A stretch of DNA of 64,000 bases from Silvibacterium bohemicum (GCF_001006305.1 NZ_LBHJ01000014.1:173447-237446), one strand, 5' to 3'; positions 4,248-63,261 are shown, counted from the stretch's first letter. Notes: generated from the sequence alone by a model not told the origin. Numbers and translations: made by a program.

Positions 4248-4652
4248 CTAAGAAGCCTGCGGATTCGTAAACATCTCGTTACCGCTCGCTGTCTGGGCGG
4301 CGGATATTTCTTCTTCGAGAACGTCCCAATGTTCTGCGAGCAATCCGTCTTCGATTCGGAAGATGTCCACAGCAATGACGGGTTTGCTAAAAGGGCCGTG
4401 TGCGGAATATCGTCCATGGATCATGACGAGATCGCCCTCTCCGATAATCATTCCAGCTTCGTACTTGAAGTCAGCCGGCACGTTGGCAGCGAGTTCGCGC
4501 AGCCCTTCTCGAAACGGGGGGATGTAGTGGTTGTGTTGTATGTAGTCCTCGGCCCAATACTTATCGAAAGCACTCAAGTCCCGATTCACAAAGACTGCTT
4601 TCATGGCCGTCAAGACGAGAGCTTTGTTTGCTAGAACATCTGTATCGCTCAT
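4248..4652 (-). CDS. SnoaL/NTF2-like protein (ester cyclase family)
   Basis: 134 residues from an ATG with GAAGGGA upstream; a longer in-frame GTG/ATG extension has no such site. The NTF2-like cone fold is indicated by the order: N-terminal helix (NKALVLTAMKAVFVNRD), the YWAEDYIQHN motif typical of SnoaL-like ester cyclases and predicted SnoaL enzymes, IPPFREGL, GDLVMIHGRYSAHG and DIFRIEDGLLAEHWDVLE. Such proteins are small hydrolases, cyclases or binding proteins; the substrate is unknown. It follows the condensation-domain gene by 69 bases on the same strand. Confidence 0.8.
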   Translation of the reverse strand: MSDTDVLANKALVLTAMKAVFVNRDLSAFDKYWAEDYIQHNHYIPPFREGLRELAANVPADFKYEAGMIIGEGDLVMIHGRYSAHGPFSKPVIAVDIFRIEDGLLAEHWDVLEEEISAAQTASGNEMFTNPQAS

Positions 4653-4721
4653 ATGTTTTCCCTTCGTTGGTGATCCAACATTTGTTTTCACGAGTCTGGC
4701 ATTTGAGACTCGCACGATCAT

Positions 4722-5984
4722 TTATGAGCTTGTTGCTAGTGCGGCGGTCAAGATCTCTTTTACGGTTTGCAACATCTCCGGAAACGGATGATGGGCGACA
4801 TGCGTAATTCCAAGCGATCCATTCACCGTCATCGTGGAAAACTTTTGTGTATCTGGCCCCCCGACAAACCCAGCAGTGAAGACCTGGTCAAGCTGCAGTC
4901 CCCTGAAACGTGTACGCACTTGATACGAGCCATAGCTCGTCAGCATGAGATCGTGCACGAACCCGCTATTCAGTAGCAGTCTTAGATGGGTTTGCGGCGA
5001 ATGCTCGTCCTCTACCAAGGAACTGGCTTGGCTCAGGAATTCGTCGATGCTGCTGCGAAGCGAACTTGACTTCATTGAAGAGGTGATCCGCGCTCCAATC
5101 TCCCAGAACTGATCTTCGCGTAGTTCTTCCAGTAGGCAGCGGTGGAGAACGACCAGCTGCCCCACTTGATCGGTCAGCCCGTGAAACGGGCGTATATCGA
5201 CTGGGCTCAGACAACGAATACCATCAGTCCGCCAAACTACGCTTGACCGAAGTCCTGCCAGAGCCAACGCCGTCAAAACGACGCTGTGAACAGAGGCACC
5301 CCGCCGTTTGGCATTGGCTACGAGAGCCTCCGTCTCAGCACTCGACAATTCTGTACGGGTGACGTGGACGGCAGTTGCCGGATGCACGGGAACTGCCTCA
5401 TTTGAAACCTCGGAAAAATGTTCCGTTGTTCGATACTCCGGGCTGTCACGACCGAACAGTTCAGCGACAGATGGGGTGAGCGGCTGCGGTTTTTGCGACG
5501 CGCGTTCCGTCAGCAAACACAACAGGTCGTGGAGCAGGAAGAGATGAGACTTTCCGTCCAATGAAGCATGGTGTGAGGCGATCAGGAACACGCACTTATT
5601 TCCCTGATGAAACAACGCAGACCTCGTTAACGGCTCGCCGTCCGTGAAGGGGTCCGAGAGCTCCTTCTCGATTGCCTCCGTGACTGAAAACGATGACGTA
5701 AGCGGCTCCACGCGCAATGGCATAGGCCGCTCCGGAACGCTATAAAAAAACGGACGTTCTCCTTCAACCTTGCCGATCGACGCTTGTAAAAGCGGATATG
5801 CCTTCTGCAATTCCCGAAGTGCTTCGTGCCAGTTTTCGATTTTTGTCTGACCGCTGATCTCGGCCGCGAGAACATGCCCGCGTCGAGCAACCCGCTCCAT
5901 CAGCCAGAAGTGTTCCTCAAAGGAGTCCAGTTGCCTCAGCACCCTGTTCTTGTCAACTTCGGAGAAGTTCATGTTTTCCGTCAC
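4722..5984 (-). CDS. Condensation-domain / PapA-like acyltransferase
   Basis: 420 residues of the CoA-dependent acyltransferase fold shared by NRPS condensation domains, PapA5-type and alcohol acetyltransferases. The catalytic HHxxxDG motif is HHASLDG at residues 138-144. As in stand-alone acyltransferases, there is no adenylation or carrier domain and none lies nearby. It probably acylates a small or lipid acceptor; donor and acceptor are unknown. The start overlaps the stop of the winged-helix ATPase gene by 4 bases (ATGA), so the regulator and the enzyme are probably translated from one message. Confidence 0.78.
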   Translation of the reverse strand: MTENMNFSEVDKNRVLRQLDSFEEHFWLMERVARRGHVLAAEISGQTKIENWHEALRELQKAYPLLQASIGKVEGERPFFYSVPERPMPLRVEPLTSSFSVTEAIEKELSDPFTDGEPLTRSALFHQGNKCVFLIASHHASLDGKSHLFLLHDLLCLLTERASQKPQPLTPSVAELFGRDSPEYRTTEHFSEVSNEAVPVHPATAVHVTRTELSSAETEALVANAKRRGASVHSVVLTALALAGLRSSVVWRTDGIRCLSPVDIRPFHGLTDQVGQLVVLHRCLLEELREDQFWEIGARITSSMKSSSLRSSIDEFLSQASSLVEDEHSPQTHLRLLLNSGFVHDLMLTSYGSYQVRTRFRGLQLDQVFTAGFVGGPDTQKFSTMTVNGSLGITHVAHHPFPEMLQTVKEILTAALATSS

Positions 5985-8767
5985 AGGGATGCACCTGCAA
6001 AACGAGGAGACTTTTCAAGGAGGGCCTCCGCTCTGCGAAAGTCATACGAATCAAATCCGGCGGCAAAGTCGCTCATCGTCTCCTTGAGCAGGCGCTTCGC
6101 CTGCGTGATCTCGTCGCCAGTTTGAGCCAGCTCAAGGAGTGTGGTTGCTGTCCTCAATTCCCACGAGAGCGCTTGCTGACGTTGCGCAATCTCCAAAGAC
6201 TGCTGCAACAGCCGGCATACATCAGCTCTAGCCTGCGACTCGCCCTCACCATGCATCCGCACGGCTTCTAATCTCAGAACTTCGGGGGCACACCACCACG
6301 AAGGGTCGCTTTTCGCCCGCTGCACTAGGAGGACGGGTGCAAAACCCAGCCCGAGCACACTGAAGTTTTCCCAATGTCGATAATCCCAATGAGATTGTTG
6401 CCTTCCTGCCTTGAATTGACGATCTGTGGATTGGCCTTTCGCTGCTACGGCGCCCAAACGGAACACATCCACGTACTGCTTCCAATACAGAGAATTGGAA
6501 AGACGGGCGTGCTCCTGCAATAGGGACAGATTGCGCTCTGCGTCCTCCAGATTTCGATTCCAAATGTTGATTGGGCATCCCGCAATGGAAAGTGCAAAAC
6601 AGATCGCGACCGACTGCTTCGTTTCCAATGCGGCAGCCACCGATTCTTCGGCGACGCGAACAGCGTCTTCCGGAAAGCCTTGAAGCCACAAAACGCGGGC
6701 CAGGGTTCCCTTGACCAATACTGCCAAGTTATAGTCATAGGCTCCGCGTATGCCGTCATCGGAGATCGTCACCTGATCTTCTATTTCGGACAGAACAGAC
6801 CGACACTCCTTGAGATTTCCCAGATACAAGAGCGACAGAGCTTTCAGCGGATTCCACCATACGTGTTGAGAATCAGCGCCGACGTACTCCTCGATCTGGA
6901 GTGCAACGTCGAGCGACTGGCTATACTCTCCGAGGCCGTGGTGATAACGCCACAGATTATGAAGGGCTCCGCTGATTCCTAGCCGATCATCCAACTGTCT
7001 GGCGAGTTCGAGTGCCCGAGTTGCAGTACCAAATAGCTCCGGTACCGCTCCGAGGGTTTCGTAGAGCGCGGGCCCCCTCGCGAGCAAGAGCCGAAGTTCA
7101 GCCCTAGACGCATTCGGCGTGCCGCTCATGGCTTCTAATGCGCGATCAGCGTGAACTTTGAACTCTTCAAAGAGAGATAGCTGAAACCAGAGATATGCCG
7201 AGGAGGCTATAACCTCAATTCCGAGTTCTGGGTCGCCTTTCGCTGAGAAAGCCCACACAATAGCTGCACGGAGTTCATCCACCATCTTGCTATGGGATTC
7301 CTGGTGAGACTTCACCACAAATCCATTTTTTGGCGCGAGACTTAGAGTTTTATCGCGAATGTATTCGGCATGTAAGCGACGGACAGAGTTCGCGCCAGGG
7401 CCGTCCCCAAGCTTCTCAATGGCATACGCGCGCGTGGAATCCAAGAGCCGGAATACGGGCGTGCTGCCCTGGTTCGACATCACGAGAAGAGACTTCGCGA
7501 CAAGGTTGGGCAGGGACTCCCAAATTCTGCCCTTCGTCATGGCGTGATCCGTTGCGACCATAAGGGCTGCATCGCGATCAAACTCACTTCGAAAGACACT
7601 CAATCGCGCTAGGAGGAGCTGTTCGCCGTCTGAAAGGAGCCCATAGCTCCAATCAAGCGTGGCGCGCAGCGTGCGATGACGCTCTTGCGCCGTACGTCGA
7701 TTGCGGGTTAGGAGCTCAAGACAATCTTCAAGTTGATTGGTGAGCGTTCGGATGTCAAAGAGATCTATGCGGGCAGCGGCTAGTTCTATAGCGAGGGGAA
7801 TTCCGTCGAGCTTGTTGCAGAGAAGTGCCAGGGCCGGTGCATCTTCATCCGTGAGTGAGAAGCCCGCAACGCCTGAAGACGCTCGCTCGACGAAGAGTTG
7901 GACTGCCGGAAAGGCTAGAGCCTCGACAGCGGTGAGCGAGGCATCTCCGAGCGACGGCGCTTGAAGAGGTAATAACCTCTTCACGAACTCTCCCTCGGTT
8001 CGCAACGGCTCTCTGCTTGTGGCAAGGAGATGGACATTCGGGCATTCGCGCAAGACCTTCTCCGCGAATGAGGCGGCAGCCTCAATTACATGTTCACAAT
8101 TGTCGAAGACAATGAGCGTTTCACGCGGTCCCAGATAATCGAAAACCGCCATTTCATCAATGCCCGATGACGCCGGCAGTCGGAGAGAGCTAGTCAAGGC
8201 AAAGGCCAACGGCGAGGAGACTGTGAGAGACGTGAAATCTACAAAGAACACGCCGTCCGGATAGATTTCAATAGCTCTTCCAGCCGTCGCCAACGCAACA
8301 CTGGTCTTGCCAATCCCACCACTGCCCACAATGCTGATGAGCCTACGATCGGCCAGATCCGAAAGAATCTCCTGAATGACTTGATCGCGGCCTATCAGTT
8401 TCGCAAGTAGAGGTGGAACATTGACCCAACTCTTTTGATAATTCTCTGTCTTCCGATGCGTGACCGGCATCGCAAACTGATATCCGCGACCAGGAACCGT
8501 CACGATACATCCATCCGGACAGCCGCCTTCGGATAAGACTTTTCGAACGGCGGCTAGATGCACTCTCAGATTGGCTTCGCCAACGCTTGTGTCCGGCCAT
8601 ATTTGAGCGGTCAATTCAGCCCCGCTCACCACTTTCCCTGCATTCTCTACGAGGATTCTAAGCAGCGAAAACGCCCGACTGCCGAGATGCACAGCTTCCC
8701 CATCACACAGCAGAGCGCTGCGCTCTGGAATCAATTCGAACGTGCCGAAACAAGAAGATGGTTTCAT
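5981..8767 (-). CDS. Winged-helix regulator with NB-type ATPase and TPR-like tail
   Basis: 928 residues from the ATG at 8767, which has GGGAG five bases upstream; the frame extends 20 codons further without a better site. Residues about 8-100 form an OmpR/PhoB-type winged helix (ending TVPGRGYQFA). A STAND/NB-ARC-like ATPase follows with Walker A GSGGIGKTS (about 148-156), Walker B LIVFDNCEH and the sensor-like LLATSREPL. The long helical C-terminal part looks like TPR repeats. This is the COG3903 predicted-ATPase regulator architecture. The ligand is unknown. It sits downstream of an AraC gene and overlaps the acyltransferase gene, its likely target or partner. Confidence 0.88.
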   Translation of the reverse strand: MKPSSCFGTFELIPERSALLCDGEAVHLGSRAFSLLRILVENAGKVVSGAELTAQIWPDTSVGEANLRVHLAAVRKVLSEGGCPDGCIVTVPGRGYQFAMPVTHRKTENYQKSWVNVPPLLAKLIGRDQVIQEILSDLADRRLISIVGSGGIGKTSVALATAGRAIEIYPDGVFFVDFTSLTVSSPLAFALTSSLRLPASSGIDEMAVFDYLGPRETLIVFDNCEHVIEAAASFAEKVLRECPNVHLLATSREPLRTEGEFVKRLLPLQAPSLGDASLTAVEALAFPAVQLFVERASSGVAGFSLTDEDAPALALLCNKLDGIPLAIELAAARIDLFDIRTLTNQLEDCLELLTRNRRTAQERHRTLRATLDWSYGLLSDGEQLLLARLSVFRSEFDRDAALMVATDHAMTKGRIWESLPNLVAKSLLVMSNQGSTPVFRLLDSTRAYAIEKLGDGPGANSVRRLHAEYIRDKTLSLAPKNGFVVKSHQESHSKMVDELRAAIVWAFSAKGDPELGIEVIASSAYLWFQLSLFEEFKVHADRALEAMSGTPNASRAELRLLLARGPALYETLGAVPELFGTATRALELARQLDDRLGISGALHNLWRYHHGLGEYSQSLDVALQIEEYVGADSQHVWWNPLKALSLLYLGNLKECRSVLSEIEDQVTISDDGIRGAYDYNLAVLVKGTLARVLWLQGFPEDAVRVAEESVAAALETKQSVAICFALSIAGCPINIWNRNLEDAERNLSLLQEHARLSNSLYWKQYVDVFRLGAVAAKGQSTDRQFKAGRQQSHWDYRHWENFSVLGLGFAPVLLVQRAKSDPSWWCAPEVLRLEAVRMHGEGESQARADVCRLLQQSLEIAQRQQALSWELRTATTLLELAQTGDEITQAKRLLKETMSDFAAGFDSYDFRRAEALLEKSPRFAGASL

Positions 8768-52655: not shown

Positions 52656-53576
52656 TTACTTCTCGGCGATGAATTCATGCGGCGTGCGAATCTCCGCGAC
52701 GTGACGCCATCCGTCCTGGTTCACCACTTGCACGATCACGTCGATGGACCGGTCACACTCCTCCTCGACGTCGTGCAAGGGAACACCTCCTCCTGAACCA
52801 CGCATGGCAAGCTGCGCCAGGCGCCGCAGTGCATCAGTGGCGCTATTGGCATGGATGGTTGTGATCGACCCACGATGCCCTGTATTCAAAGCATCGAGGA
52901 AGACGCGCGCCTCGGGACCGCGAATCTCGCCGACGATGATGCGGTCGGGGCGATGCCGGAGCGCGGCCTTAAGCAAATCCGCGAATCCAATCTGACTCTT
53001 GTGGGTATCGAGCTGGGCTTCGGCGGAGATGACGTGCGGCTTCTTTATATATAGTTCGGCGACATCTTCGAGGATCAGGATGCGGTCGTCGTCTGGGATG
53101 AAATCGGCGAGTACATTGGTGAGCGTCGTCTTGCCCGATGAGGTACTTCCTGAGATCAGGAGATTGTCTCCGCGCTTCACAGAGTTCGTCAGAGTCTCGG
53201 CCTGTGCTTCCGTCAGTGCCTTCCGGTTGATCAGGTCATCAATGGTGAAGTTCCGCGAGGTGAACTTGCGGATGGTCATCATCGGACTTGGGTTGACTAC
53301 CGGAGGGATGAGCGCCGCCATGCGGCTGCCATCCGGCAGACGTAGGTTCATGATAGGTGAGTCGGCGTCGAGCTTCTTGCCGAAGCGATTGGCGATCACT
53401 TCAAGACCTGTTAACAACGCTCCGTCATCAAACCGGACGCCATGCTGCAACACAATGTGACCCTTCTCTTCGATCCAGACCGAGCCGTCAGGATTGACCA
53501 TGATCTCGGAGATGGTCGTATTCATCAGCAGATGCTCAATCGGCTTTAGGAACGGGATGATAATTTCAAAACTCAT
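52656..53576 (-). CDS. virB11: VirB11/CpaF-type secretion ATPase
   Basis: 306 residues. N-terminal EIMVNPDGSVWIEEKG, then the ATPase core: Walker A GSTSSGKTTL, Asp-box ILEDVAEL, Walker B RIIVGEIRGPEA and the His-box TIHANSATDAL. Hexameric cytosolic motor of type IV secretion/conjugation; also similar to TrbB and CpaF. It overlaps the virD4-like gene by 4 bases. No virB4, B6 or B8-B10 in the window, so it either serves a machine encoded elsewhere or is a remnant. Confidence 0.93.
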   Translation of the reverse strand: MSFEIIIPFLKPIEHLLMNTTISEIMVNPDGSVWIEEKGHIVLQHGVRFDDGALLTGLEVIANRFGKKLDADSPIMNLRLPDGSRMAALIPPVVNPSPMMTIRKFTSRNFTIDDLINRKALTEAQAETLTNSVKRGDNLLISGSTSSGKTTLTNVLADFIPDDDRILILEDVAELYIKKPHVISAEAQLDTHKSQIGFADLLKAALRHRPDRIIVGEIRGPEARVFLDALNTGHRGSITTIHANSATDALRRLAQLAMRGSGGGVPLHDVEEECDRSIDVIVQVVNQDGWRHVAEIRTPHEFIAEK

Positions 53577-55609
53577 GCAGGTATCCTCTCCGGGTCGAAT
53601 GCGATCTGTTCCTGGTCGAACCAGCTCATATCGATAGGCAGGAAGTCGGGTTTGAGGTAGCAGTAGGTCGGCGGCAATGGGCTGATGCCGTCGAAGGCTA
53701 CGACGATGGATTGTGCATTCTTCAGGTCGAAGAAGACTTTTTCCTCGAAGAGCGGTTCTTTATGTTTTTGGTACTGCTTCGAGGCGGAGACTGAGCCTTT
53801 GCTGGATGACGTCCGGCCCGAGAGCAGACCGACATTGGCATTGGTGCTGGATTCGGAGACGATGTAACTGATATGGGTGCGGTCCTCTTTGCCGCACAGC
53901 TCCGATGCGTAGCGTGCGGTCTCTGGGTCGGAGGTGGTAAGGAAGACTTTGGTGCGGAACGCCTGCAGCAGAGTCTTCACACCGTCATTGGTTAACGCTT
54001 CCTTGAGACTCGACACGCTCTGCGTAGCGACGATGGGGATGCACTTCGGCTGGCGGGAGAGACTGAGGAAACGTTCATCGCCATTGGGATTGTCGCCGCC
54101 GACCGTGGCGAAGTTCTGGTATTCGTCGCAGATGAAGACGGTCGGGCGGTAATGCCTGTCAGGTTCGGCGTCCATCCTGGGGATGCGTAGCTGCACAGCC
54201 CGTTGATAGTCCACCTTCATCATGGTGCCGATGGTCTTCGCCAGTGCCGGGTTCAGGGCGACGGGAAAGTTCAGGCCCACGACCGCGCCCGATTCGATAA
54301 GGTCATCGAACGCTGGAAGGACCCTACCATTGGGGTCCGCAGCGCAGGGCTTGCCTTCGTACATATCTTTTGGCGGGCAGAAGACACGGCGTACCTGCGG
54401 GTCTGTTTCAAATAAGGAGAGGAAGACGACGATGCCCTGGATGATCGAGGTCTTGACCTCGGAGCGAAAGAACTTCCAGTGCTCCCAATACCAATACCGG
54501 ACGCTCTCGAAGCGGTCGCGCTGATCCGGTCGATATGGTTTGCGGGTATAGACTCCGAACTCCGCAGAGGTCTGCTGGACAAGCAACTGTTCTAACTCGT
54601 CGGTCCAGCCAACAAGGTAGAGGTCCACGTCCTGGCGCCACTCGAAGCCAAGCGGAGATAGGAAGGATTCATATTCTCGATATGCGTCTCTACTGATGCC
54701 GATGTAGCTGGCCGTGCTGAAGCGTGAGCCAACCTCGTTCAGCATCTGTTCGAGCGTCCCGGCGCTGATGACGGTGCGGAAGAGATCGACCATCGTGAGG
54801 TATCCATCGCGGATGCGGTGCAACAGGATGACGTAGCGCATGAGGTCGGTATAGGACTGCTGCCAGAAGGGTTCCCGGCCCTTGCCCCATATCGAGGTGA
54901 TGATGGAGGCGATGTTGAACGCCTGCGCGTAAGGATCGAGCGAGTTGTTCAACGGGTTGTAGCGGATGTCACCGGTAAGCGAGACCTCGACATAGTCCTG
55001 TTCGCGTCCGCACCATTTAAGGATGCGCTGAAGCTGGCGGCAGAGATCGCCTTTGACTTCGAGGACGATACCGGAGAGCTTTCGTTCCGGGTCGTCGGCG
55101 CGATATGCGAACAACTGGCGCATCGCCGGTAAAATCAGCCCATAAGTTTTGCCACTCCCTATAGAGCCGAAGGATGCGATGCCGGTGTAGAGACCGCGCT
55201 CAGGGATCGTGAGCCAGTATGGAAACGGGCCGGGGTTGGGCACGAGCTGCCGATGCACCTCCCCCAGAACAAGAGAGAGTTTCCGACGCGTGCGGGGATC
55301 GGAATAAGTAGGAAGGACCCCAAACTCCAGTTCCGAATCTTTCCTATAGAGGTGAACGTAGGCCAGCGAGAACAGGAGGGAGAAGAACAGAAACGGCGTG
55401 GTGTAGAGGAACAGATCGTAGCCTTGCACCATTATGCGGAAGGTCGTTGGCTGCTCGTATGCGATCAGGTGCAGCAATGGATCGTCTATACGGGCCGGAT
55501 AGAGGGTATGGAGAACGATGCCGCAGGCCAGGCTGAGGCCGATGGAGAGCAGCAGGCGATACTCGACCAGCAGCCGGACGAACTTCTGAAGACGTGGAGA
55601 CTCGCGCAT
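53573..55609 (-). CDS. virD4: VirD4/TraG-type coupling protein
   Basis: 678 residues, ATG with AGGAGG upstream. N-terminal membrane helices (LLVEYRLLLSIGLSLACGIVL; FLYTTPFLFFSLLFSLAYV), Walker A FGSIGSGKTYGLILP, Walker B VFICDEYQNFATV, and the TraG-like QSVSSLKEAL and FRTKVFLTTSDPETARY. Brings the DNA-relaxase complex to the transfer channel. No relaxase gene is recognisable here, although three unknown genes lie upstream. Confidence 0.94.
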   Translation of the reverse strand: MRESPRLQKFVRLLVEYRLLLSIGLSLACGIVLHTLYPARIDDPLLHLIAYEQPTTFRIMVQGYDLFLYTTPFLFFSLLFSLAYVHLYRKDSELEFGVLPTYSDPRTRRKLSLVLGEVHRQLVPNPGPFPYWLTIPERGLYTGIASFGSIGSGKTYGLILPAMRQLFAYRADDPERKLSGIVLEVKGDLCRQLQRILKWCGREQDYVEVSLTGDIRYNPLNNSLDPYAQAFNIASIITSIWGKGREPFWQQSYTDLMRYVILLHRIRDGYLTMVDLFRTVISAGTLEQMLNEVGSRFSTASYIGISRDAYREYESFLSPLGFEWRQDVDLYLVGWTDELEQLLVQQTSAEFGVYTRKPYRPDQRDRFESVRYWYWEHWKFFRSEVKTSIIQGIVVFLSLFETDPQVRRVFCPPKDMYEGKPCAADPNGRVLPAFDDLIESGAVVGLNFPVALNPALAKTIGTMMKVDYQRAVQLRIPRMDAEPDRHYRPTVFICDEYQNFATVGGDNPNGDERFLSLSRQPKCIPIVATQSVSSLKEALTNDGVKTLLQAFRTKVFLTTSDPETARYASELCGKEDRTHISYIVSESSTNANVGLLSGRTSSSKGSVSASKQYQKHKEPLFEEKVFFDLKNAQSIVVAFDGISPLPPTYCYLKPDFLPIDMSWFDQEQIAFDPERIPA

Positions 55610-55621
55610 ATGATGAACCTC

Positions 55622-55909
55622 CTACGCGTGGGTTGATGCGCTCGTTGGCGACGGTTCGGACTTTGCCGGAGACGGCTTCGCGATGGCGGCGGGGCGAGAA
55701 GTATTAGTGGAGGCGCTGACCTTGTACTTCTGGAAGTCCTCTTCCTGGGTGAGTGCGAAGCGCAGCAGCTCGTTGACGACATAGTTGGTTTCGTTGTTCG
55801 ACCACTCGGCCATCAACTCGACGTCGTCGGCGATGGTCTGATCGATGGAGGATTGCAGCTTGGCACGCCGAATCCTGCTGATGCCGTGTTCCAGTTTCAG
55901 TTTGCTCAT
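55622..55909 (-). CDS. Small basic/acidic protein, ribbon-helix-helix-like
   Basis: 95 residues, ATG with AGGAG upstream. Residues 20-62 (SIDQTIADDVELMAEWSNN...NYVVNELLRFAL) resemble ribbon-helix-helix DNA-binding proteins; the rest is a Ser/Pro/Thr-rich tail. Twelve bases upstream of the coupling protein gene. RHH proteins near a coupling protein are often relaxosome accessory factors, so that is the likely role. Assignment to a named family is not certain. Confidence 0.6.
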   Translation of the reverse strand: MSKLKLEHGISRIRRAKLQSSIDQTIADDVELMAEWSNNETNYVVNELLRFALTQEEDFQKYKVSASTNTSRPAAIAKPSPAKSEPSPTSASTHA

Positions 55910-56042
55910 GGAGTTCTCCTGTGGATCAAGTTGGAATCTGTTATGTATCCGTTCCGGCTGCGATATGGATCAGCGACGAATGCTGAACTGATCCGGTTTG
56001 TATCCAGCGCGGATGACCGGAATATCTGCGCTGGATACTTGG

Positions 56043-56124
56043 TGTGCGTGAGGTGGGAGCGACCAGCGCGGCGGAGCCGACGCGGGAGGTGCGAAGCACC
56101 GGGGTCGCTCCCACCTCACGCACA
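56043..56124. repeat. 22-bp perfect inverted repeat with 38-base inner region
   Basis: Arms at 56043-56064 and 56103-56124 are fully complementary (tgtgcgtgaggtgggagc...). The inner part carries a further small hairpin GGTGC-GAA-GCACC. It lies in the 299-base gap ahead of the RHH/virD4/virB11 operon. Candidates are a REP-type palindrome, an attenuator or an origin-of-transfer structure. Confidence 0.65.
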
Positions 56125-56208
56125 TACTTTCCCTAACCCCGCCTATCTGCGTAACTCGTTGTACCTGCATTAGTAAGCTCCTTTCCCGCGTGTCCGTTCG
56201 CGTGCCCG

Positions 56209-57219
56209 CTACCGTGCCCACTCGCCCTCGTGTACTGGCTGGTTATGTTGCACCGCCGAAGTCGGATAGCTATATGGAAGAACCACGGTGGAGAACGTTG
56301 CACGCATGGATGTCTGAAGAAAACGCTGCCGTATTTTCTCCTCACTGGAGCTTCCCATCTTCCATGCCGCGTAGAGTGCCTGGTGTTCGAGCGAGGTGTA
56401 CAGCCCCTCTCCCTCGCGCAGGGTCTTAAGATCACTCGAAAGAACACCTTGCCCACCCACCTCGGACTGTTGCCGGACCGCGAGAAACCGGATGAAGTGA
56501 TCAACACCGAGCGGCGTCATTGGCGTCACACCGCGCATCTGGTCCGCAGGAAGAAAGCGACCGAAGGCAGCTTTCGCCCGCGCGGAGTTGCTCTCATTGT
56601 CCGCAACAAAGACCAGCTCAAACTCGCCGAGCGCGGCAAACAGCGGCTGGTACTGTTTGAGGTAGCGCTCGAAGCGAGTTGCCGTCACCTGGCCTTCGTC
56701 GAAGAAGACGAAGCTGGGGACGCCGGTGTTCGAGACCAGGATGGGGAAGCCATCGGGGAAATACATCAGGCGTCCGGCGTAGCTCCGGGGCAGTAGCTCG
56801 GAACGGACACCGCACTGCGTCGTGAAGAAATCGACCTTGCTTGCCTCGTCTTCCAGGATGTTCGCGCTCAGATGTGCGAGGACGATGTCGAGCACCATGA
56901 GCCGGGACTTAATATAGTTATCGCCCTTGATGCGGCGGTTCTGCGAGTCGGGGCGCCCCACCGCTTCATAGACCGGCTTCGAGGCAAGGTGATAGATGTG
57001 CCGTCCCTGGCCGCACTCGATCACGCGGAGATGGTGAAGTCGGGACGCTTTTTCAAGGAAACGCGTGGGCATGGCCCCGCGATCGCACTGGACAAACTGG
57101 CTGTACTGCCGCCGCAGGAAGTAGCCAGAGTGTACGGCGACCAGATATAGGAACGATGCTTCGCGTTCGAGATAGCCGACAGCTTCGAGGGATGAGATTG
57201 GGTCGTAGTCGATTGTCAT
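56209..57219 (-). CDS. Unknown protein of the mobile module, winged-helix-like
   Basis: 336 residues. ATG overlaps the previous stop by 4 bases. Residues about 20-90 look like a winged helix (AVHSGYFLRRQYSQFVQCDRG...). The rest has mixed strands and a YFPDGFPILVS...FVFFDEGQVTATRF pattern, which recalls PD-(D/E)xK nuclease-like folds; this resemblance is my own reading and weak. Its neighbour at 57216 has a similar layout, and both may relate to the replication-relaxation group. No confident function. Confidence 0.65.
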   Translation of the reverse strand: MTIDYDPISSLEAVGYLEREASFLYLVAVHSGYFLRRQYSQFVQCDRGAMPTRFLEKASRLHHLRVIECGQGRHIYHLASKPVYEAVGRPDSQNRRIKGDNYIKSRLMVLDIVLAHLSANILEDEASKVDFFTTQCGVRSELLPRSYAGRLMYFPDGFPILVSNTGVPSFVFFDEGQVTATRFERYLKQYQPLFAALGEFELVFVADNESNSARAKAAFGRFLPADQMRGVTPMTPLGVDHFIRFLAVRQQSEVGGQGVLSSDLKTLREGEGLYTSLEHQALYAAWKMGSSSEEKIRQRFLQTSMRATFSTVVLPYSYPTSAVQHNQPVHEGEWAR

Positions 57220-58268
57220 AGGTCCAGAATGTCCTCCATCAAACCGTGGTCGTCTTCGATCTTGGCCGTGAGCGAGGCGCGGTCGGAGGCCGAGGCGTAG
57301 TTGCGGAAGCCTGCCTGCGCTTTAGCGCGCAGGTGACCCGCGTGATACGCGGCGGTAAGAACCTCGATGTCCTCATGGCCGGTGCGCGACCCTTGGCTGG
57401 CATCTTGCCCCTCTTGGCGCGGGAGGTCGTAGTCGATCCGCGCGTCGGGAATCTGAATCTTTCCATCGACCAAGGGGAGCTCGAATCGCTCGGCCACTTC
57501 CTCTTTAATCTCTGCCATGTCGCGCTTCGGATCGGCTTTGCGCTCGGCATAGATGGCCTTCTGCACATCAGACTTGATCTCGAAGTCGAGGCGCACGCGC
57601 AGGTTGCTGCCGCCCCTGCCCTCGATGCGTTCGGCTTCCTTCTGATACGCGCGATAAATCTGTGAGTCGTGTTCGGCCTCGCGAGGCTTGACCAGACCGG
57701 CGTAGACCCACTGGTCTTTGGGCAGGTCGCCCTGCTTCAGCAGCAGGCGGCGACCGTCTTTGGTGAGCGTGACGACTTCGACGCGTTCGATCGTGCGCCG
57801 CTGTCCGTCACGGCGCAGGTTGACATGCGTGGTCTCCACAAGCCCCTTGTCGCGGAGATACCGGAGGTCATTCTCCAGCGGACGAGCTTTGCCGTTGTAC
57901 AGCGTCTCGCGGAGGTCCGCCGTGCGGACGACGCGAAAGCGCCCAGCTTCGCGCAGGAGTTGTTTCTCCTCGGGGCGCAGCTCCAGACCGACGATGTTGC
58001 CGATGGATCGTGCCGGACGGCGCGGGTCCGGCGAAGCAACGGGACGGCGGCGCTGGCGCGGCACATCGCGCGGTTGCTCCGCACGCTTGCGCGCCGCCTC
58101 GGGGCGCGGTGGGCGACGGTCCGCAGAGCGATCCTCCAGAGACTTTAGGCGATGGAGGATGGGATTTTCGGGCGGCTTGCGCGTGACGTTGCGATCACCC
58201 GACGATCCCGAAGCGGTGTCGCTCCCCTCGCGGCGCCGGGGCTGTTCGTGCGGAATATCCAGTCTCAT
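57216..58268 (-). CDS. Unknown winged-helix protein of the mobile module
   Basis: 350 residues. The first 95 residues are Arg/Pro-rich and disordered. A winged helix follows (LREAGRFRVVRTADLRETLY...ENDLRYLRDKGLVETTHVN). The C-terminal domain has EHDSQIYRAYQKEA, LRVRLDFEIKSDV, IQIPDARIDYDL and HEDIEVLTAAYHAGHLRAK, which looks like the replication-relaxation / PD-(D/E)xK-like arrangement. Overlaps both neighbours by 4 bases, so one coupled message. Likely binds or processes element DNA; unproven. Confidence 0.68.
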   Translation of the reverse strand: MRLDIPHEQPRRREGSDTASGSSGDRNVTRKPPENPILHRLKSLEDRSADRRPPRPEAARKRAEQPRDVPRQRRRPVASPDPRRPARSIGNIVGLELRPEEKQLLREAGRFRVVRTADLRETLYNGKARPLENDLRYLRDKGLVETTHVNLRRDGQRRTIERVEVVTLTKDGRRLLLKQGDLPKDQWVYAGLVKPREAEHDSQIYRAYQKEAERIEGRGGSNLRVRLDFEIKSDVQKAIYAERKADPKRDMAEIKEEVAERFELPLVDGKIQIPDARIDYDLPRQEGQDASQGSRTGHEDIEVLTAAYHAGHLRAKAQAGFRNYASASDRASLTAKIEDDHGLMEDILDL

Positions 58269-58537
58269 GCACCCTCCCCGTCATCGGCGCGCTCCGCAGG
58301 CGCAGGCGCAAACTCTATCGAAGTCTGGGCCGGTGCTGATTTCGCGACGGACCTTTTCGGTCGCTCAACGGCAGGAGAAACCGGCGGTGCCTTCGGCCCG
58401 TGGCCGACGATACGACGCACGTCGTAGTCGGCCACGCAGGTAAAGCGGTCCATCTCTCTGTCGGCGGCTTCGCGCATCGCGCGGACCTTGGCGACAAGGT
58501 CGGGCGTGCGGTCGAGGTACTGGTCTTCCGACTGCAT
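58265..58537 (-). CDS. Small unknown protein of the mobile module
   Basis: 90 residues. Helical N-terminus (LDRTPDLVAKVRAMREAADREMDRF), then a Pro/Ala-rich tail (VSPAVERPKRSVAKSAPAQ). Overlaps the winged-helix gene by 4 bases and follows the membrane gene by 2 bases. No known family. Confidence 0.6.
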   Translation of the reverse strand: MQSEDQYLDRTPDLVAKVRAMREAADREMDRFTCVADYDVRRIVGHGPKAPPVSPAVERPKRSVAKSAPAQTSIEFAPAPAERADDGEGA

Positions 58538-58539
58538 GG

Positions 58540-58845
58540 CTACTGTCCCTCCTCATCACCGAAGCGCGAACGTATCTCGTCAGATAGCTCGTTCTTCCCG
58601 GTATGGATCTCCTGATCAAAGTGCCTGAGTTTGCGGCCTGTGTCGCGCAGGAAGAATTTGCGCTCGATCCAGATGGTGAGGCCGAGGATGTTAGCGAAGA
58701 GCAGAGCGCAATAGAGCGCGATGCTCTTGAGGTAGCTGTGGACAATCAGGCTGCGCCACGGCGTGAGGAAGTGGAGCGTGTGCATCGACCAGAAGCCAAG
58801 CGCAAGAAAGATCAACGTGGCAACAAAGGCGGCGTTGGCGATCAT
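58540..58845 (-). CDS. Small membrane protein of the mobile module
   Basis: 101 residues with two membrane helices (ANAAFVATLIFLALGFWSM; SIALYCALLFANILGLTIWI) and a charged cytosolic tail (RKLRHFDQEIHTGKNELSDEI). Could be a small subunit of the transfer machinery, or an exclusion or anchor protein. First gene of the operon after the terminator at 58883. Confidence 0.62.
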   Translation of the reverse strand: MIANAAFVATLIFLALGFWSMHTLHFLTPWRSLIVHSYLKSIALYCALLFANILGLTIWIERKFFLRDTGRKLRHFDQEIHTGKNELSDEIRSRFGDEEGQ

Positions 58846-58882
58846 CGGTATCCCTTCCGCCGCGAACGGTGCGCGGCATCGT

Positions 58883-58914
58883 CAGAAGAAAAGTGGAGAG
58901 GCGTCAACCTCTCC
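58883..58914 (-). terminator. Rho-independent terminator of the recombinase/SSB unit
   Basis: GGAGAGG / CCTCTCC perfect 7-bp stem, loop of six, followed on the minus strand by ACTTTTCTT. It lies 21 bases after the SSB remnant stop. Confidence 0.6.
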
Positions 58915-58934
58915 GCGAAAAAGGGAGGATTGTG

Positions 58935-59416
58935 TTAGCCTCCCTCGCCGAAATCGACCAGTGCTTCGGGACGATCCAGCTTTTGAATGCGGATGGCATG
59001 AACGGCATAGTTGGTTTTGCTGACCGAATGGGACTCGCCCGCTACGACGACCGTTCGGGGCTGATCCTGGCTGCGAAGCTCGCCTTCGATTTCGAGGTAA
59101 TCGCCGCGCCTCATCCCACGAACCATTCCGCAGAAGAATGGACCAGGACAGATGATGCGATGCCAGTCGGTGCGCGGGGTCCACTCATTGGTGAGAGGTC
59201 CCAGATGCCGGACACTGTTGCCAGCAGTAGGACCGCGTAAGCATCTTCGGCGATTCCATCCGAAGGGGGCGCCTCGGCGTTTTTGCCGAGGAACCCGCGA
59301 AGCGTGACGGTGTTGGTTATGTGGAATTGGGGCGGTTTTGCCAGCGCGATTTGCCGCGTCGCCTCTGGCCCCCAGGCGCCTGCTACCGCAGATGTCACGA
59401 TGAGTTGGGTCAGCAT
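58935..59416 (-). pseudogene. SSB-like gene with a frameshift
   Basis: Frame one (from 59416) reads NTVTLRGFLGKNAEAPPSDG...YAVLLLATVSGIWD. The SSB continues in the next frame as TNEWTPRTDWHRIICPGPFFCG and RGDYLEIEGELRS. The shift is near 59185-59210. Together they match single-strand DNA-binding proteins of the kind seen intact at 62854. The N-terminal 32 codons come from the inverted repeat at 59321-59408. Its start overlaps the large recombinase stop as TAATG. A single error in the assembly, or true decay, could explain the shift. Confidence 0.65.
59321..59408. repeat. Inverted repeat, arm A of the recombinase cassette
   Basis: 88 bases nearly identical, in reverse orientation, to 62711-62799 (two substitutions and one indel by eye). 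Includes tgacatctgcggtagcaggc (as read on the minus strand). Weaker similarity extends about ten bases further out. Confidence 0.85.
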
Positions 59417-61629
59417 TATTCTTCTCTTTCACTGAGCCGCATGGCTGGCGCGGCTTCGATTTGCAGCAGACGGTCTGGAGTCGGCACATCCCGAAGATTT
59501 GCGATGAGCTTTTCGTAAGCGGCCAGACCATCCTCGACCGCGGCCAGTTCAGGCTCAGAGAGCGGGATATCTTGTCTCAGTCTCAGCAGATTGGCTTTGG
59601 CTTCGAGGATTTGCGCGCGTGTGGACTCCTTTGCCACATAGAACGAACACTGCGCACACGCCATGCGATGGGGGCATTGATCGAAGAAGTCGTAGGTGCA
59701 GTATCCGTGGCCGAGATCGAAGAACTTCCATGCCTCCTCGGCGGCCAGTCCTTTGCGAACAACATCCTGATCGATCAGCACTTCGATCGCACGGATATTG
59801 CGTTCGAAGTAGCCGGCCTTTTCGTAGGATTTGGTCAGCTTCGATGGATTGATCTTCGCGTAGTGCTGTGTTGAGGACGGATGCTTGTGACCCAGCCATG
59901 CCTGGAGTTCGAAGAGCGACATCGGTTCACGCGCATTGAAGAGCTGCGTGGCGATGGTGCTGCGCGCCCGGTGACTGGTAATACGGCCGCGGACATCCTT
60001 GTCGGGGATGCCCGCTTTGGCGCACAGTACGGGGATCAGCGTGTTGTTCAGATACGCGCAGCCAAGTGCTTTTGAACGATACGCGAACAGGTAATCGACC
60101 AGTTCGCCAGTCTTTGGATCGATGATTTTCATCTGTGTGGGCCGGTCTTTTTCCCAGGCTTCGATCACTTCACCAACGACTGTATCCACAGGCTTTGAAA
60201 ATGCCGTGCTTGTTTTGCTGATGGGGATGGACAGCAGACAGACGCGTTCGCCCGGCGCGTTTTCCTGCCAACGTATACATCCCAGCCGAAGCCTGCGTAT
60301 CTCATCCCAGCGCAGTCCAGCGAACAACCATACGACTGATAGCGCCCGCACCAGTGGCAAGGGATAGAAATAGGTGTCATTATTGCCTGGGTTACCACGG
60401 AAGGGCAGGTCCTTTGCAGCGATGTTCAAGCCCGCCCAGATCAACTTGGCCCACACATCATCTGCTATAACGCGGGGATCAGTGCCGATGAGCGCTCGCA
60501 GAGAGCGCGGAAGACGGAACGCGACGTGTGGATCAAAAGACCGTGGGATAGTCTCCCAGTACTGCAGGTCACGGAAGAAGGTCCGCAGCGAGGAGAGAAC
60601 GCTGGCCTTGCTCCTCGCGAGCATGGGCTTACCGGCGCTGTGGAACCAGCTCTTTGTTGTGCTGTGCGCCCATTCGCAGTTTTTGAGATTGAGGCACATC
60701 ACCACGGCTTCGGCTGCAACGGCGCGGGTCCACTGCGCCGGGCCTTCGATATGGGGGCGCGTCGCATGGAGCCATCGCCCTACCGAGAGAAGCTGACAGT
60801 AGATCCGGCTCCGAGAGGTGCGAGACAGAGTGGATGTTTCATGCCAGTACTTCGCCAAGCGTTCCCACTCGTAAGGGACATTGGCGAGGATGGCCTCGGG
60901 GGCTTTGTCTGCCAGCTTCGACTTGAGTCCAGGCCGACGAACTGGCTGCTCGATGATTCCATCCGACGCCAGCAAGCGAGCTAGCGCGATCACGCACTTC
61001 TCTAACACGCCATTCCGCTCTTGAAGTTGAAGCAGAGCTACCTCGGTGATGTCTTCTATGCGGGGCGACCGCGTGATCAGCATCAACTGAGCCAGCGTGA
61101 GCGGCACCTTCCGCAGTGTGCGCGGTCCATAGCCCGACTCCGACAACCTGGCGCTGATCTTTTTCTTGACGGCAGCGAACCTCTTGAACCCGAAGATCTG
61201 GAGGGCCAGATACGAAGAGAACTGCCGCCGCTTGGGGAAGTTCATTAGTCCCTCAAAGCCCCGCAGCAGGAAGGCCGCTGCGATGATGGGATTGCCCTCG
61301 TGTCTGCGGCGCTCTACGACTTCGATCCACTCCGCATCACTCCATGCCCACAGGGAGCGATCCCGGCGGCCCATCTCTTCCAGCAAGTAGAAAACGAGAG
61401 ACCGGCGCCTTACCCCTCTGATCTCGATGTGATCTAAAACGTCGTGCATAGGGCGCACGAGCCGTTCAACAACATCGAGCGATGGTTGCCGGGTCTTACT
61501 GGACTTAATGCGCGACGGTAGTTCCACCGTAAGGAAGAGTCGCTCTTTCGCAGTCAGGCCGTGTGCTTGATCGTATTGACTTGCGTCGATCGGCCAGGTC
61601 CATGTATCTGTTCTTTTTCTCACGCTCAT
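59416..61629 (-). CDS. Large tyrosine recombinase (TnpB-of-Tn554-like)
   Basis: 737 residues from the ATG at 61629, which overlaps the upstream stop (ATGA). The long open extension before it is not used. C-terminal catalytic domain: arginine in FAGLRWDEIRRLRLG, SHRARSTIATQLFN (HxxR), LGHKHPSSTQHYAKI (His and the likely nucleophile Tyr). A cysteine cluster near the end (CTYDFFDQCPHRMACAQC) is typical of the large paired recombinases. Works with the 340-residue enzyme in integration/excision. Confidence 0.9.
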   Translation of the reverse strand: MSVRKRTDTWTWPIDASQYDQAHGLTAKERLFLTVELPSRIKSSKTRQPSLDVVERLVRPMHDVLDHIEIRGVRRRSLVFYLLEEMGRRDRSLWAWSDAEWIEVVERRRHEGNPIIAAAFLLRGFEGLMNFPKRRQFSSYLALQIFGFKRFAAVKKKISARLSESGYGPRTLRKVPLTLAQLMLITRSPRIEDITEVALLQLQERNGVLEKCVIALARLLASDGIIEQPVRRPGLKSKLADKAPEAILANVPYEWERLAKYWHETSTLSRTSRSRIYCQLLSVGRWLHATRPHIEGPAQWTRAVAAEAVVMCLNLKNCEWAHSTTKSWFHSAGKPMLARSKASVLSSLRTFFRDLQYWETIPRSFDPHVAFRLPRSLRALIGTDPRVIADDVWAKLIWAGLNIAAKDLPFRGNPGNNDTYFYPLPLVRALSVVWLFAGLRWDEIRRLRLGCIRWQENAPGERVCLLSIPISKTSTAFSKPVDTVVGEVIEAWEKDRPTQMKIIDPKTGELVDYLFAYRSKALGCAYLNNTLIPVLCAKAGIPDKDVRGRITSHRARSTIATQLFNAREPMSLFELQAWLGHKHPSSTQHYAKINPSKLTKSYEKAGYFERNIRAIEVLIDQDVVRKGLAAEEAWKFFDLGHGYCTYDFFDQCPHRMACAQCSFYVAKESTRAQILEAKANLLRLRQDIPLSEPELAAVEDGLAAYEKLIANLRDVPTPDRLLQIEAAPAMRLSEREE

Positions 61630-62648
61630 CGAAACAGCCTCCCCATCCCTTCGAGGCGCTGCTGATGCAGTTGCGCCATTGTGGCGTTGAACTTGGCCGC
61701 CAGGTCGCGTGCGCTCAGATGCACGTAGATCATGGTGGTCTCTATGCTGCGATGGCCGGCGAAGGTTGCGATCTCGTGGATGTCCCAGTCCGCTCGCGCC
61801 AGATCGGTCAGACACAGATGCCGCAGCGTGTGAGGCGTGAAGCCCGCGGCGTCGGCGCGCCTTGCGATGGCGGTGACGATCTTGGACCACGCCCAGATCG
61901 AGACGGGTTGTGCGCGGTTGCGCGGTGACTGCGACAGGAACAGTCGCCCGCGCTGCCGGCTCAGTGTGCGGCGGTGTTCAAGATACTGCCCATACAGCTC
62001 ATCCGTTGTTACCGAGTAAGGCAGGACACGCGACCTGCGATTCTTGGTGGTCTCGGCACGGACGTGGATGGTGCGACGCGATGGATCGATGTCGCTTGTT
62101 TCAAGCAGACACAACTCTTCCCGCCGAAGTCCGGCATCGTAGCTCATCGCCAGCATCAGGCGATTGCGAATAGGCTCTTTCGCAGTCTCGCTGAGAACAC
62201 GACACCATTCTTCCTCTGTTGGAATGGTGGGCAGCTTGTGTTCTCGTCTTACCAGTGGCAGCGATGAGCGGCCGTCACCACGGCGGTATGGATTCCTTGT
62301 GCAGCGCCCCTCTTCCACCAAAAAGTCGTAGAACATCCGCAACGCAGCGAGGTGCTGTTGGATCGTCGCATTCGCCATGCGGATGTCCGGCTCCTCCGGC
62401 GCAGCGGATGGCTTCACTAAATCGCGCAGATAAGCTCCAACGATTTCCTGCCCGATCTCATGAGGTCTTTTGTCATAAGAGTTGAGGAACCGCAGGTATC
62501 GCTCCAGATTGCGGCCGTAGGCACTTAGCGTGTTGAGAGCAAGCCCACGGCACGCCTGGAAGCCAAGCCATGCACGAGCGTCTTTCTCGCCCTCTACAAG
62601 TGGAATGCGGTCCCATTGAACTTCACTGATGAGTTGGTTAGATTTCAC
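61626..62648 (-). CDS. Tyrosine recombinase, XerD/TnpA-like
   Basis: 340 residues from a GTG with GGAG ten bases upstream; the frame stays open upstream through the inverted repeat but without the family's start. N-terminal SAM-like core-binding domain (WLGFQACRGLALNTLSAYGRNLERYLRFL), then catalytic AMSYDAGLRREELCLL, TPHTLRHLCLTDLARAD and GHRSIETTMIYVHL with its tyrosine. Upstream partner of the large recombinase. Confidence 0.92.
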   Translation of the reverse strand: MKSNQLISEVQWDRIPLVEGEKDARAWLGFQACRGLALNTLSAYGRNLERYLRFLNSYDKRPHEIGQEIVGAYLRDLVKPSAAPEEPDIRMANATIQQHLAALRMFYDFLVEEGRCTRNPYRRGDGRSSLPLVRREHKLPTIPTEEEWCRVLSETAKEPIRNRLMLAMSYDAGLRREELCLLETSDIDPSRRTIHVRAETTKNRRSRVLPYSVTTDELYGQYLEHRRTLSRQRGRLFLSQSPRNRAQPVSIWAWSKIVTAIARRADAAGFTPHTLRHLCLTDLARADWDIHEIATFAGHRSIETTMIYVHLSARDLAAKFNATMAQLHQQRLEGMGRLFR

Positions 62649-62710
62649 TCTGTTCTTCTCCACGGCGTGATTTGTCGATTGAGCGAGCCTTCTGGGCCGC
62701 TCGTCGGCAG

Positions 62711-62799
62711 CCAACTCATCGTGACATCTGCGGTAGCAGGCGCCTGGGGGCCAGGGGCGACGCGGCAAATCGCGCTGACTAAAACCGCCCCAATTCCAC
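62711..62799. repeat. Inverted repeat, arm B of the recombinase cassette
   Basis: 89-base partner of 59321-59408 in reverse orientation, 63 bases upstream of the smaller recombinase start. It may also hold the recombinase promoter. Confidence 0.85.
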
Positions 62800-62838
62800 G
62801 TAACTAATATGAAGAGTGTCATGATTGCACCTCCCAGG

Positions 62839-62872
62839 GGAGGACAACGCGGTCTAAGCCGCGTCGTCCTCC
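62839..62872 (-). terminator. Strong hairpin across the ssb stop codon
   Basis: GGAGGAC-A-ACGCGG / CCGCGT-C-GTCCTCC, 13 paired bases with one mismatch around TCTAAG, which contains the stop codon. No T-run after it on the minus strand. Likely ends or processes the ssb message. Confidence 0.55.
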
Positions 62873-63261
62873 GTGATGGGCTCGGCGTCGGGGTTCTGGC
62901 CCGAGACCGGCTTTGCCAGCTTCTTGACGATGCTGGCGCGTACCTCCCAACCACGGCGCTTGACCGTGGTCTTCTTCTTGCCCTCGCCGACCTCGGCATC
63001 GTACTCGGTGCTGCGCAGCTCGCCTTCGATCTCGACGTAGTCGCCCTTCTTCAGGTTCTTTGCGAAGTCGGCGGGTTTGCCGAAGGCGACGATGCGGTGC
63101 CACTCGGTGTGGTTGACCCACTGCTGGGTCTGCTTGTCCTTGTAGCCGGACTTGGTGGAGAGCGAGAGAACGGTGAAGGTCTTCTGCTGTTTGGTTGCGA
63201 AGTTCTCGGCGTCCTTGCCGATGAAGCCCTTCAGCTTGATGTTGTTTTCGTAGAGTGCCAT
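62854..63261 (-). CDS. ssb: Single-stranded DNA-binding protein
   Basis: 135 residues, ATG with AAGGAG upstream. OB-fold SSB: MALYENNIKLKGFIGKDAE, FTVLSLSTKSGYKD, WVNHTEWHRIVAFGK, GDYVEIEGELRSTEYD. The tail PVSGQNPDAEPITEDDAA is acidic but lacks the DDxxPF tip of housekeeping SSB, so it is an element-borne type. Preceded by a long, hairpin-rich leader. Confidence 0.93.
   Translation of the reverse strand: MALYENNIKLKGFIGKDAENFATKQQKTFTVLSLSTKSGYKDKQTQQWVNHTEWHRIVAFGKPADFAKNLKKGDYVEIEGELRSTEYDAEVGEGKKKTTVKRRGWEVRASIVKKLAKPVSGQNPDAEPITEDDAA

Follow-up and report, generated by a model that had tools for sequence, protein, structure and literature searches.

A TnpC-less, Tn554-related transposon in Silvibacterium bohemicum with long terminal inverted repeats that evolve in concert

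The DNA analysed here is a stretch of 64,000 nucleotides (nt) from Silvibacterium bohemicum (GCF_001006305.1, NZ_LBHJ01000014.1:173447-237446), referred to throughout as the window. Near its end, two tyrosine recombinase genes lie between long inverted repeats, within a transposon that interrupts ssb2, the second of a pair of ssb genes (Table 1). The tnpA-like and tnpB-like genes are both on the minus strand and overlap by ATGA. Each encodes a complete catalytic set: R174, K201, H272, R275, H298, and Y307 in the TnpA-like protein and R440, K472, H553, R556, H581, and Y590 in the TnpB-like protein. These R-K-H-R-H-Y columns are invariant in the family alignments of both recombinases. The TnpB-like protein also has a C-terminal cluster, GYC-CPHxxACxxC, and pairwise matching finds CPHxxACxxC in common with the Tn554-type TnpB. 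Its structure model (pTM 0.40) has an N-terminal half that is predicted to be all-helical. Both proteins have remote homology to a Listeria tnpABC set (E 1e-18 for TnpA and 4e-8 for TnpB). In this control set the third gene, DUF6262, was detected; in the window there is no TnpC/DUF6262 and no third gene between tnpB and the tnpB-side repeat, 11 bp away.

A preliminary description of the locus had given the repeats as 88 and 89 nt with two substitutions and one indel, enclosing two overlapping recombinase genes. The genes are as described, and the repeats given are the core of a longer one. When 59313-59408 is aligned with 62807-62711, 96 nt are matched to 97 nt, and the differences are four substitutions and one indel. 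At the outer edge, the last 4 bases of the match are target sequence on one side and part of a 6-mer of the element on the other, and the arms proper, with ends placed by relatives and empty sites, are 92 and 93 bp. They are called here the U arm, on the tnpA side, and the D arm, on the tnpB side. The longest exact match between the arms is 44 nt, compared to 17 nt or fewer in shuffled windows; chance falls far short of explaining the inverted arms, which are real. In the whole S. bohemicum genome there are exactly two matches to the arm sequence, both at this locus. The boundaries are based on comparison of the junctions with empty ssb1-ssb2 loci, five other ssb-inserted elements, and six other elements with terminal inverted repeats (TIR), which places the element ends to about one base.

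Table 1. Features of the element and its target in the window.
Feature	Position	Strand	Details
Whole element	59317..62809	-	3493 bp; runs from 59317 (tnpB side) to 62809 (tnpA side); from junction comparison
U arm, tnpA-side terminal inverted repeat	62711..62803	-	Outer end TTACGTGGAATTGGG
D arm, tnpB-side terminal inverted repeat	59317..59408	+	Outer end TTATGTGGAATTGGG
6-mer TATTAG beside the U end	62804..62809	-	Apparently element-carried; family consensus TATAAG
TnpA-like tyrosine recombinase	61626..62648	-	340 aa, GTG start; Phage_integrase 1.7e-31
TnpB-like long tyrosine recombinase	59416..61629	-	737 aa, ATG start; Phage_integrase 2.2e-12
Open frame through D arm	59317..59416	-	ATG at 59416 overlaps tnpB stop (TAATG); MLTQLIV...KPPQFHI; in frame into ssb2 body
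ssb2 5' fragment	62810..62822	-	ATG ACA CTC TTC A; frame runs through U arm into tnpA
ssb2 3' fragment	58935..59316	-	Resumes CC AAC ACC GTC; one-base deletion breaks frame near 59190-59200
ssb1, intact upstream neighbour	62854..63261	-	Pfam SSB 2.8e-17

The insertion point is after codon 4 of ssb2, with no target duplication. On the minus strand the order is ssb1, ATG ACA CTC TTC A, the element, and then CC AAC ACC GTC ACG with the rest of ssb2. Deletion of 59317-62809 in silico gives M-T-L-F-T-N-T-V-T-L-R-G, as in the empty sites, and no base is lost or duplicated. Empty sites, in which both flanks are contiguous and ssb2 is uninterrupted, were found in ten other loci, two of these being on other contigs of the same genome. 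Conserved ends, variable flanks, and empty sites both in related genomes and twice in its own bear out the earlier proposal of a mobile unit. The ssb1-ssb2 pair is present three times in the S. bohemicum genome (contigs 6, 10, and 13).

A search of 397 genomes of the order identified TnpB relatives in 27 genomes, and each locus was tested for inverted matches of sequence upstream of tnpA to sequence downstream of tnpB. Ten further TIR elements were identified in this way, with arms of 49 to 95 bp and scores of 39-92, compared to about 16 or less for shuffles; one of the ten (L074) is degenerate. A later genome scan identified an extra TIR element with cargo (L116). The total is therefore 11 clear TIR elements and one degenerate, in different genes and genomes, with arms that extend 49-97 bp from the element ends and have a shared outer end. 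The two-gene form with long repeats that had been suggested from the window is borne out. The eleven clear elements are a small, related sample, and the genomes include many drafts and metagenome bins.

In a TnpB tree of 94 rows, the TIR elements are in one acidobacterial clade (15 rows, support 99) that includes an ssb subclade of 6 rows and a parB subclade of 8 rows, each with support of 100. The ssb subclade, with insertions at the start of ssb genes, is made up of the window element, L060, L061, L062, L063, and L025, which has one end off its contig. In the parB subclade, L018, L065, L067, and L069 are in parB-like genes at a Cys codon; the gene interrupted by L018 encodes ParB_N and HTH_ParB domains, and L116 appears to sit in a parB-like gene too. 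The L064 target is a gene with a YhcG PDDEXK nuclease domain. A second copy is present in genome G580, in a paralogous parB-like gene, with arm sequence identical up to the contig edge. All of the TIR elements with a readable target gene are oriented in the same direction as that gene. In genome G202, one parB-like gene has been interrupted twice (L018, 560-3999 and about 4575-8635), by a GInt/Tn554-like set of two catalytic recombinases, a third long open reading frame (ORF), and a DUF6262 protein, and by the TIR pair.

For every readable case the junctions have the pattern target / N6 TTAYGTGGAAT ... ATTCCACATAA / target. Rejoined ssb targets read MTLFTNTV, MNIFKNVV, MYSNKV, MFNKV, and MYQNKV, which are regular SSB sequences, and rejoined parB targets, also regular ParB sequences, read ...DQ/CLDG..., the same as the empty loci; in neither group is a base duplicated or lost. 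The same rule is seen independently in two IncN plasmids whose flanks are 100% identical. The empty mucB reads CTTCGCC/AGGTAATTACGG and the filled mucB has TCTATG-TTATTTGGAATT ... ATTCCACATAA between these halves. The 6.3-kb relative in mucB of an IncN Escherichia coli plasmid (L013, 2811-9126) has cargo annotated as an isocitrate lyase/PEP mutase family protein, an alpha/beta hydrolase, and a LysR regulator, and empty mucB is present in many plasmids.

Over 71 tnpA-side ends, the majority bases of the N6 sequence are T (65), A (51), T (42), A (41), A (62), and G (69). The 6-mer seems to travel with the element, because it is near-constant at these ends while the target bases vary; the six bases outside the tnpB-side end are variable, unlike those of the tnpA side. 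An element-borne 6-mer was not found in the open-access papers searched. For SE and Tn554-type elements the donor spacer has been reported to end at the far side (PMC10214605, PMC12486829). The 6-mer here points the opposite way to a rule that takes the donor spacer to the right end, as a pattern among ends rather than as a donor and recipient pair. A 6-mer that is a fingerprint of the donor site, in the style of SE, is not favoured on the same grounds of near-constancy at variable targets. Such a fingerprint is possible in the parB subclade alone, where TGTAAG looks like codons of parB, but the idea does not suit the ssb and mucB cases.

Beyond this clade, relatives at 41-52% identity are found in the Actinomycetota, Chloroflexota, Pseudomonadota, Bacteroidota, Nitrospirota, and other Acidobacteriota, at least six phyla. 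The pair of a short TnpA-like and a long TnpB-like protein (340 and 737 aa in the window) is the constant unit across the family, with two genes throughout. Many of the elements are minimal, at 3.35-3.6 kb, and some have cargo. The end motif TTAYGTGGAAT, with no more than 1 mismatch, was found at 62 tnpA-side and 52 tnpB-side ends. The ends were located by searching for the motif itself, so these counts are not blind; simple arithmetic puts a chance match within 300 bp at well under 1% of loci. No long inverted repeat starting at the element ends was found among the relatives examined outside the acidobacterial clade, including nine plasmid relatives checked for long repeats, and two scans of viral contigs found no relative. 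Five actinobacterial relatives (L010, L138, L153, L158, and L159) lie between inverted repeats of 24-62 bp, and L010 adjoins an ISL3-family transposase. These repeats were not counted, being outside the element ends and apparently those of a host ISL3-type insertion sequence (IS), the left end of which may be preferred as a target by these relatives. Eight draft contigs of 3.4-3.6 kb (L133, L146, L150, L161, L172, L173, L174, and L179), some with high coverage in their titles, contain little beyond the element and are probably collapsed multicopy elements. A high-coverage contig of Mycobacterium helveticum was not accepted as proof of multiple copies; its end is in that contig only and copy number is read from coverage alone.

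The two arms of a TIR element are 89-99% identical, compared to 62-92% between elements, and in 22 out of 22 cases an arm is closest to its partner within the same element. Changes have occurred in lock-step in both arms at 33 of the 48 variable columns in the ssb subclade and 18 of the 26 in the parB subclade (51 of 74 together). These alignments indicate that the TIR arms evolve in concert. Homogenisation is incomplete, in that 10 of 11 elements have kept arms that differ in length by 1 nt, at a point about 16-24 nt in from the end. The near-identity of the window's arms, offered earlier as a possible sign of recent activity, is no evidence of it, because all TIR members measured have arms that are kept alike, even where the arms of different elements differ by up to 38%. 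Neither concerted arm evolution in a tyrosine-recombinase element nor long, concertedly evolving repeats of this kind were found in the open-access papers searched.

The origin of the symmetric ends may be read from a short word, [TG]CAA[GC], near position 20. Outside the TIR elements it is present at 29 of 52 tnpB-side ends and at 1 of 62 tnpA-side ends (p about 8e-12 by Fisher's test, with relatedness ignored), and the sole tnpA-side case, L068, itself belongs to the TIR clade. The parB-subclade elements with TIR have GCAAG on both sides. Since these carry the tnpB-side word at both ends, the most economical account is a probable copying of the tnpB-side end to the other side. In the ssb subclade neither end has the word.

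It is highly probable that the element is an IS-like, site-specific, TnpC-less transposon related to Tn554, in whose clade the tnpB-side end was probably copied and the arms since homogenised by conversion. The kinship is with Tn554 rather than RIT elements because of homology, gene order, and insertion style. As judged from its genes and junctions, it belongs with the broad Tn554-related tnpAB elements, having a short and a long recombinase, adjacent and on the same strand, and site-specific insertion without duplication. It is outside the strict Tn554 (tnpABC) definition, being without TnpC. In common with the strict family (Tn554, Tn558, Tn6188, and Tn6674) it has TnpA/TnpB homology and order, a specific site, no target duplication, and a short spacer by the ends. 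Unlike that family, the window element has no TnpC/DUF6262, has long near-perfect repeats, and has a spacer that is apparently element-borne at the tnpA side. The SE and GInt elements also combine one ordinary and one large recombinase at fixed targets, with a 6-bp spacer in SE, but they have four core genes including a TnpC-like protein, where the window has two genes, and short terminal motifs only.

In 2012 Van Houdt et al. (PMC3414803) described recombinase pairs related to Tn554, mostly actinobacterial, in which one member is very long and the other ordinary; some of the pairs lack TnpC. The Famint41/Famint36 pairs of that account are adjacent, have no TnpC, and are known on plasmids of Streptomyces and Rhodococcus, which are hosts of relatives here too. 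The relatives in this analysis are presumably the same proteins, matched by architecture and host rather than by accession. The ends, target rule, and long inverted repeats are undescribed in that account (PMC3414803), and in the actinobacterial relatives read here the element ends carry the short motif and no long repeat starts from them.

In the proposed mechanism, TnpA and TnpB would bind TTAYGTGGAAT at both ends. The ends would be joined, with a 6-bp spacer supplied by the tnpA side, either as a circle or in a form joined through a single strand, such as has been proposed for Tn554-type and SE elements; the predicted circle junction in the model is CCACATAA-TATTAG-TTACGTGG. The circle would insert into a gene-specific site, with the spacer staying on the tnpA side and the target's own 6 bp coming to lie next to the opposite end. 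Symmetric ends would probably have arisen in the acidobacterial clade when the tnpA side received a copy of the tnpB-side end. The arms would since have been homogenised by inter-arm conversion, through host recombination or the repair of a folded-back transposition intermediate.

The arms of the ssb clade would, in addition, keep reading frames open, from the target start codon to tnpA and from an ATG at the tnpB end to the target gene. In all six ssb-subclade elements the D arm is open and in frame with ssb from an ATG at the overlapping tnpB end; of the two remaining frames, one is open in 4 of the 6 and the other in none. On the other side, the U arm can be read through along its full length in the tnpA frame in 5 of 5 elements, and in 4 of 5 this frame is also that of the ssb start codon. 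As read from these frames, translation from the ssb start could extend into tnpA, and this suggests that the element borrows its target's start and supplies the target with a new one. The downstream ssb is intact in L060, L061, L062, L063, and L025. It is not in the window, where ssb2 would now be a pseudogene unless the lost base is a sequencing error.

The preliminary description had raised gene conversion of the arms, which stands as one live explanation. In Wolbachia, the two terminal repeats of one bacterial IS do recombine, the step needed for conversion (PMC3004938), but this is an ordinary DNA-transposon IS for which inversions rather than family-wide concerted evolution were reported. 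A tentative and rather doubtful variant is that the match is a by-product of transposition, in which a single-strand-joined or single-stranded intermediate folds on its inverted ends and repair of the duplex rewrites one arm from the other with every move. If true, this would explain why the tnpB-side end was copied and why the arms evolve in lock-step, and the arms would preserve in their sequence a trace of the route taken by Tn554-type elements.

It is unlikely that the arms match through base-by-base selection, for binding to the same fast-evolving recombinases or for pairing with each other in a single strand, rather than by copying. Within-element differences are mostly transitions (29 to 6, compared to 397 to 305 between elements, p 0.002), which fits wobble-tolerant pairing, and the 1-nt difference in length kept between the U and D arms suggests that they are under selection. 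However, low divergence by itself raises the share of transitions, and a by-eye count of wobble direction in the arm alignment gave no clear strand bias. Selection also demands matching substitutions at 51 of 74 variable columns over 60-90 bp, yet relatives without long repeats manage with about 11 shared bases.

A locus-bound cassette, flipped by its recombinases to switch gene expression, has the usual layout of recombinase genes between inverted repeats, but is very improbable given the single orientation relative to the target gene in all readable cases, the empty sites, and the different targets (ssb, parB, and yhcG-like). Descent from a RIT element by loss of one of three recombinases is equally hard to credit: RIT elements have overlapping recombinase genes (ritA, ritB, and ritC) and 34 bp terminal inverted repeats (PMC10214605, PMC3414803), but the three enzymes are of ordinary size (315-410 aa) with no long TnpB, and the 340 and 737 aa pair is constant in the family, its long member having the C-terminal Cys/His cluster of Tn554-type TnpB. 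By length, not sequence, the 92/93 bp repeats of the window compare with about 34 bp in RIT, and their distribution in the family is unrelated. The mixture of RIT and Tn554 architecture first supposed is thus not upheld; this is a Tn554-type short and long pair, with long repeats in one acidobacterial clade of the lineage.

Several points weigh against the reading of a mobile Tn554 relative with copied and converted ends. The window element has no TnpC, and TnpC is needed for Tn554 transposition. Its mobility is read from sequence comparison rather than from observed movement. There is only one copy in its own genome and ssb2 has lost a base downstream of it, so the window copy may be old. The copying of the end is argued from the parB subclade, and does not directly reach the ssb subclade. 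Sequence alone does not tell conversion between arms from the repair of an intermediate that has folded back, or either of these from selection for a match. In addition, L017, of the basal pair of the parB subclade, is without TIR, and because it lies inside that subclade the repeats have had either one gain and one loss or two gains.

The element lies within a conjugation-type block on the minus strand of the window (52656-63261), with a VirB11-like ATPase, a VirD4/TraG-like coupling protein, ssb1, ssb2, and two ORFs (56209-57219 and 57216-58268) that have no Pfam, PHROG, or NCBIfam match. Away from the element, at 56043-56064 and 56103-56124, there is also an inverted repeat of 22 bp, perfect and with a loop of 38 nt.

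This is a widespread, little-described group of Tn554 kin, and long mirror-copy ends set the clade of the window element apart from the others. The analysis gives ends, an insertion rule, and a host range of at least six phyla to a large group of IS-like tyrosine-recombinase transposons that are annotated just as 'site-specific integrase'. Short asymmetric and long symmetric ends within one family are a natural comparison for how Tn554-type elements distinguish their ends, and for whether a single-stranded form occurs.

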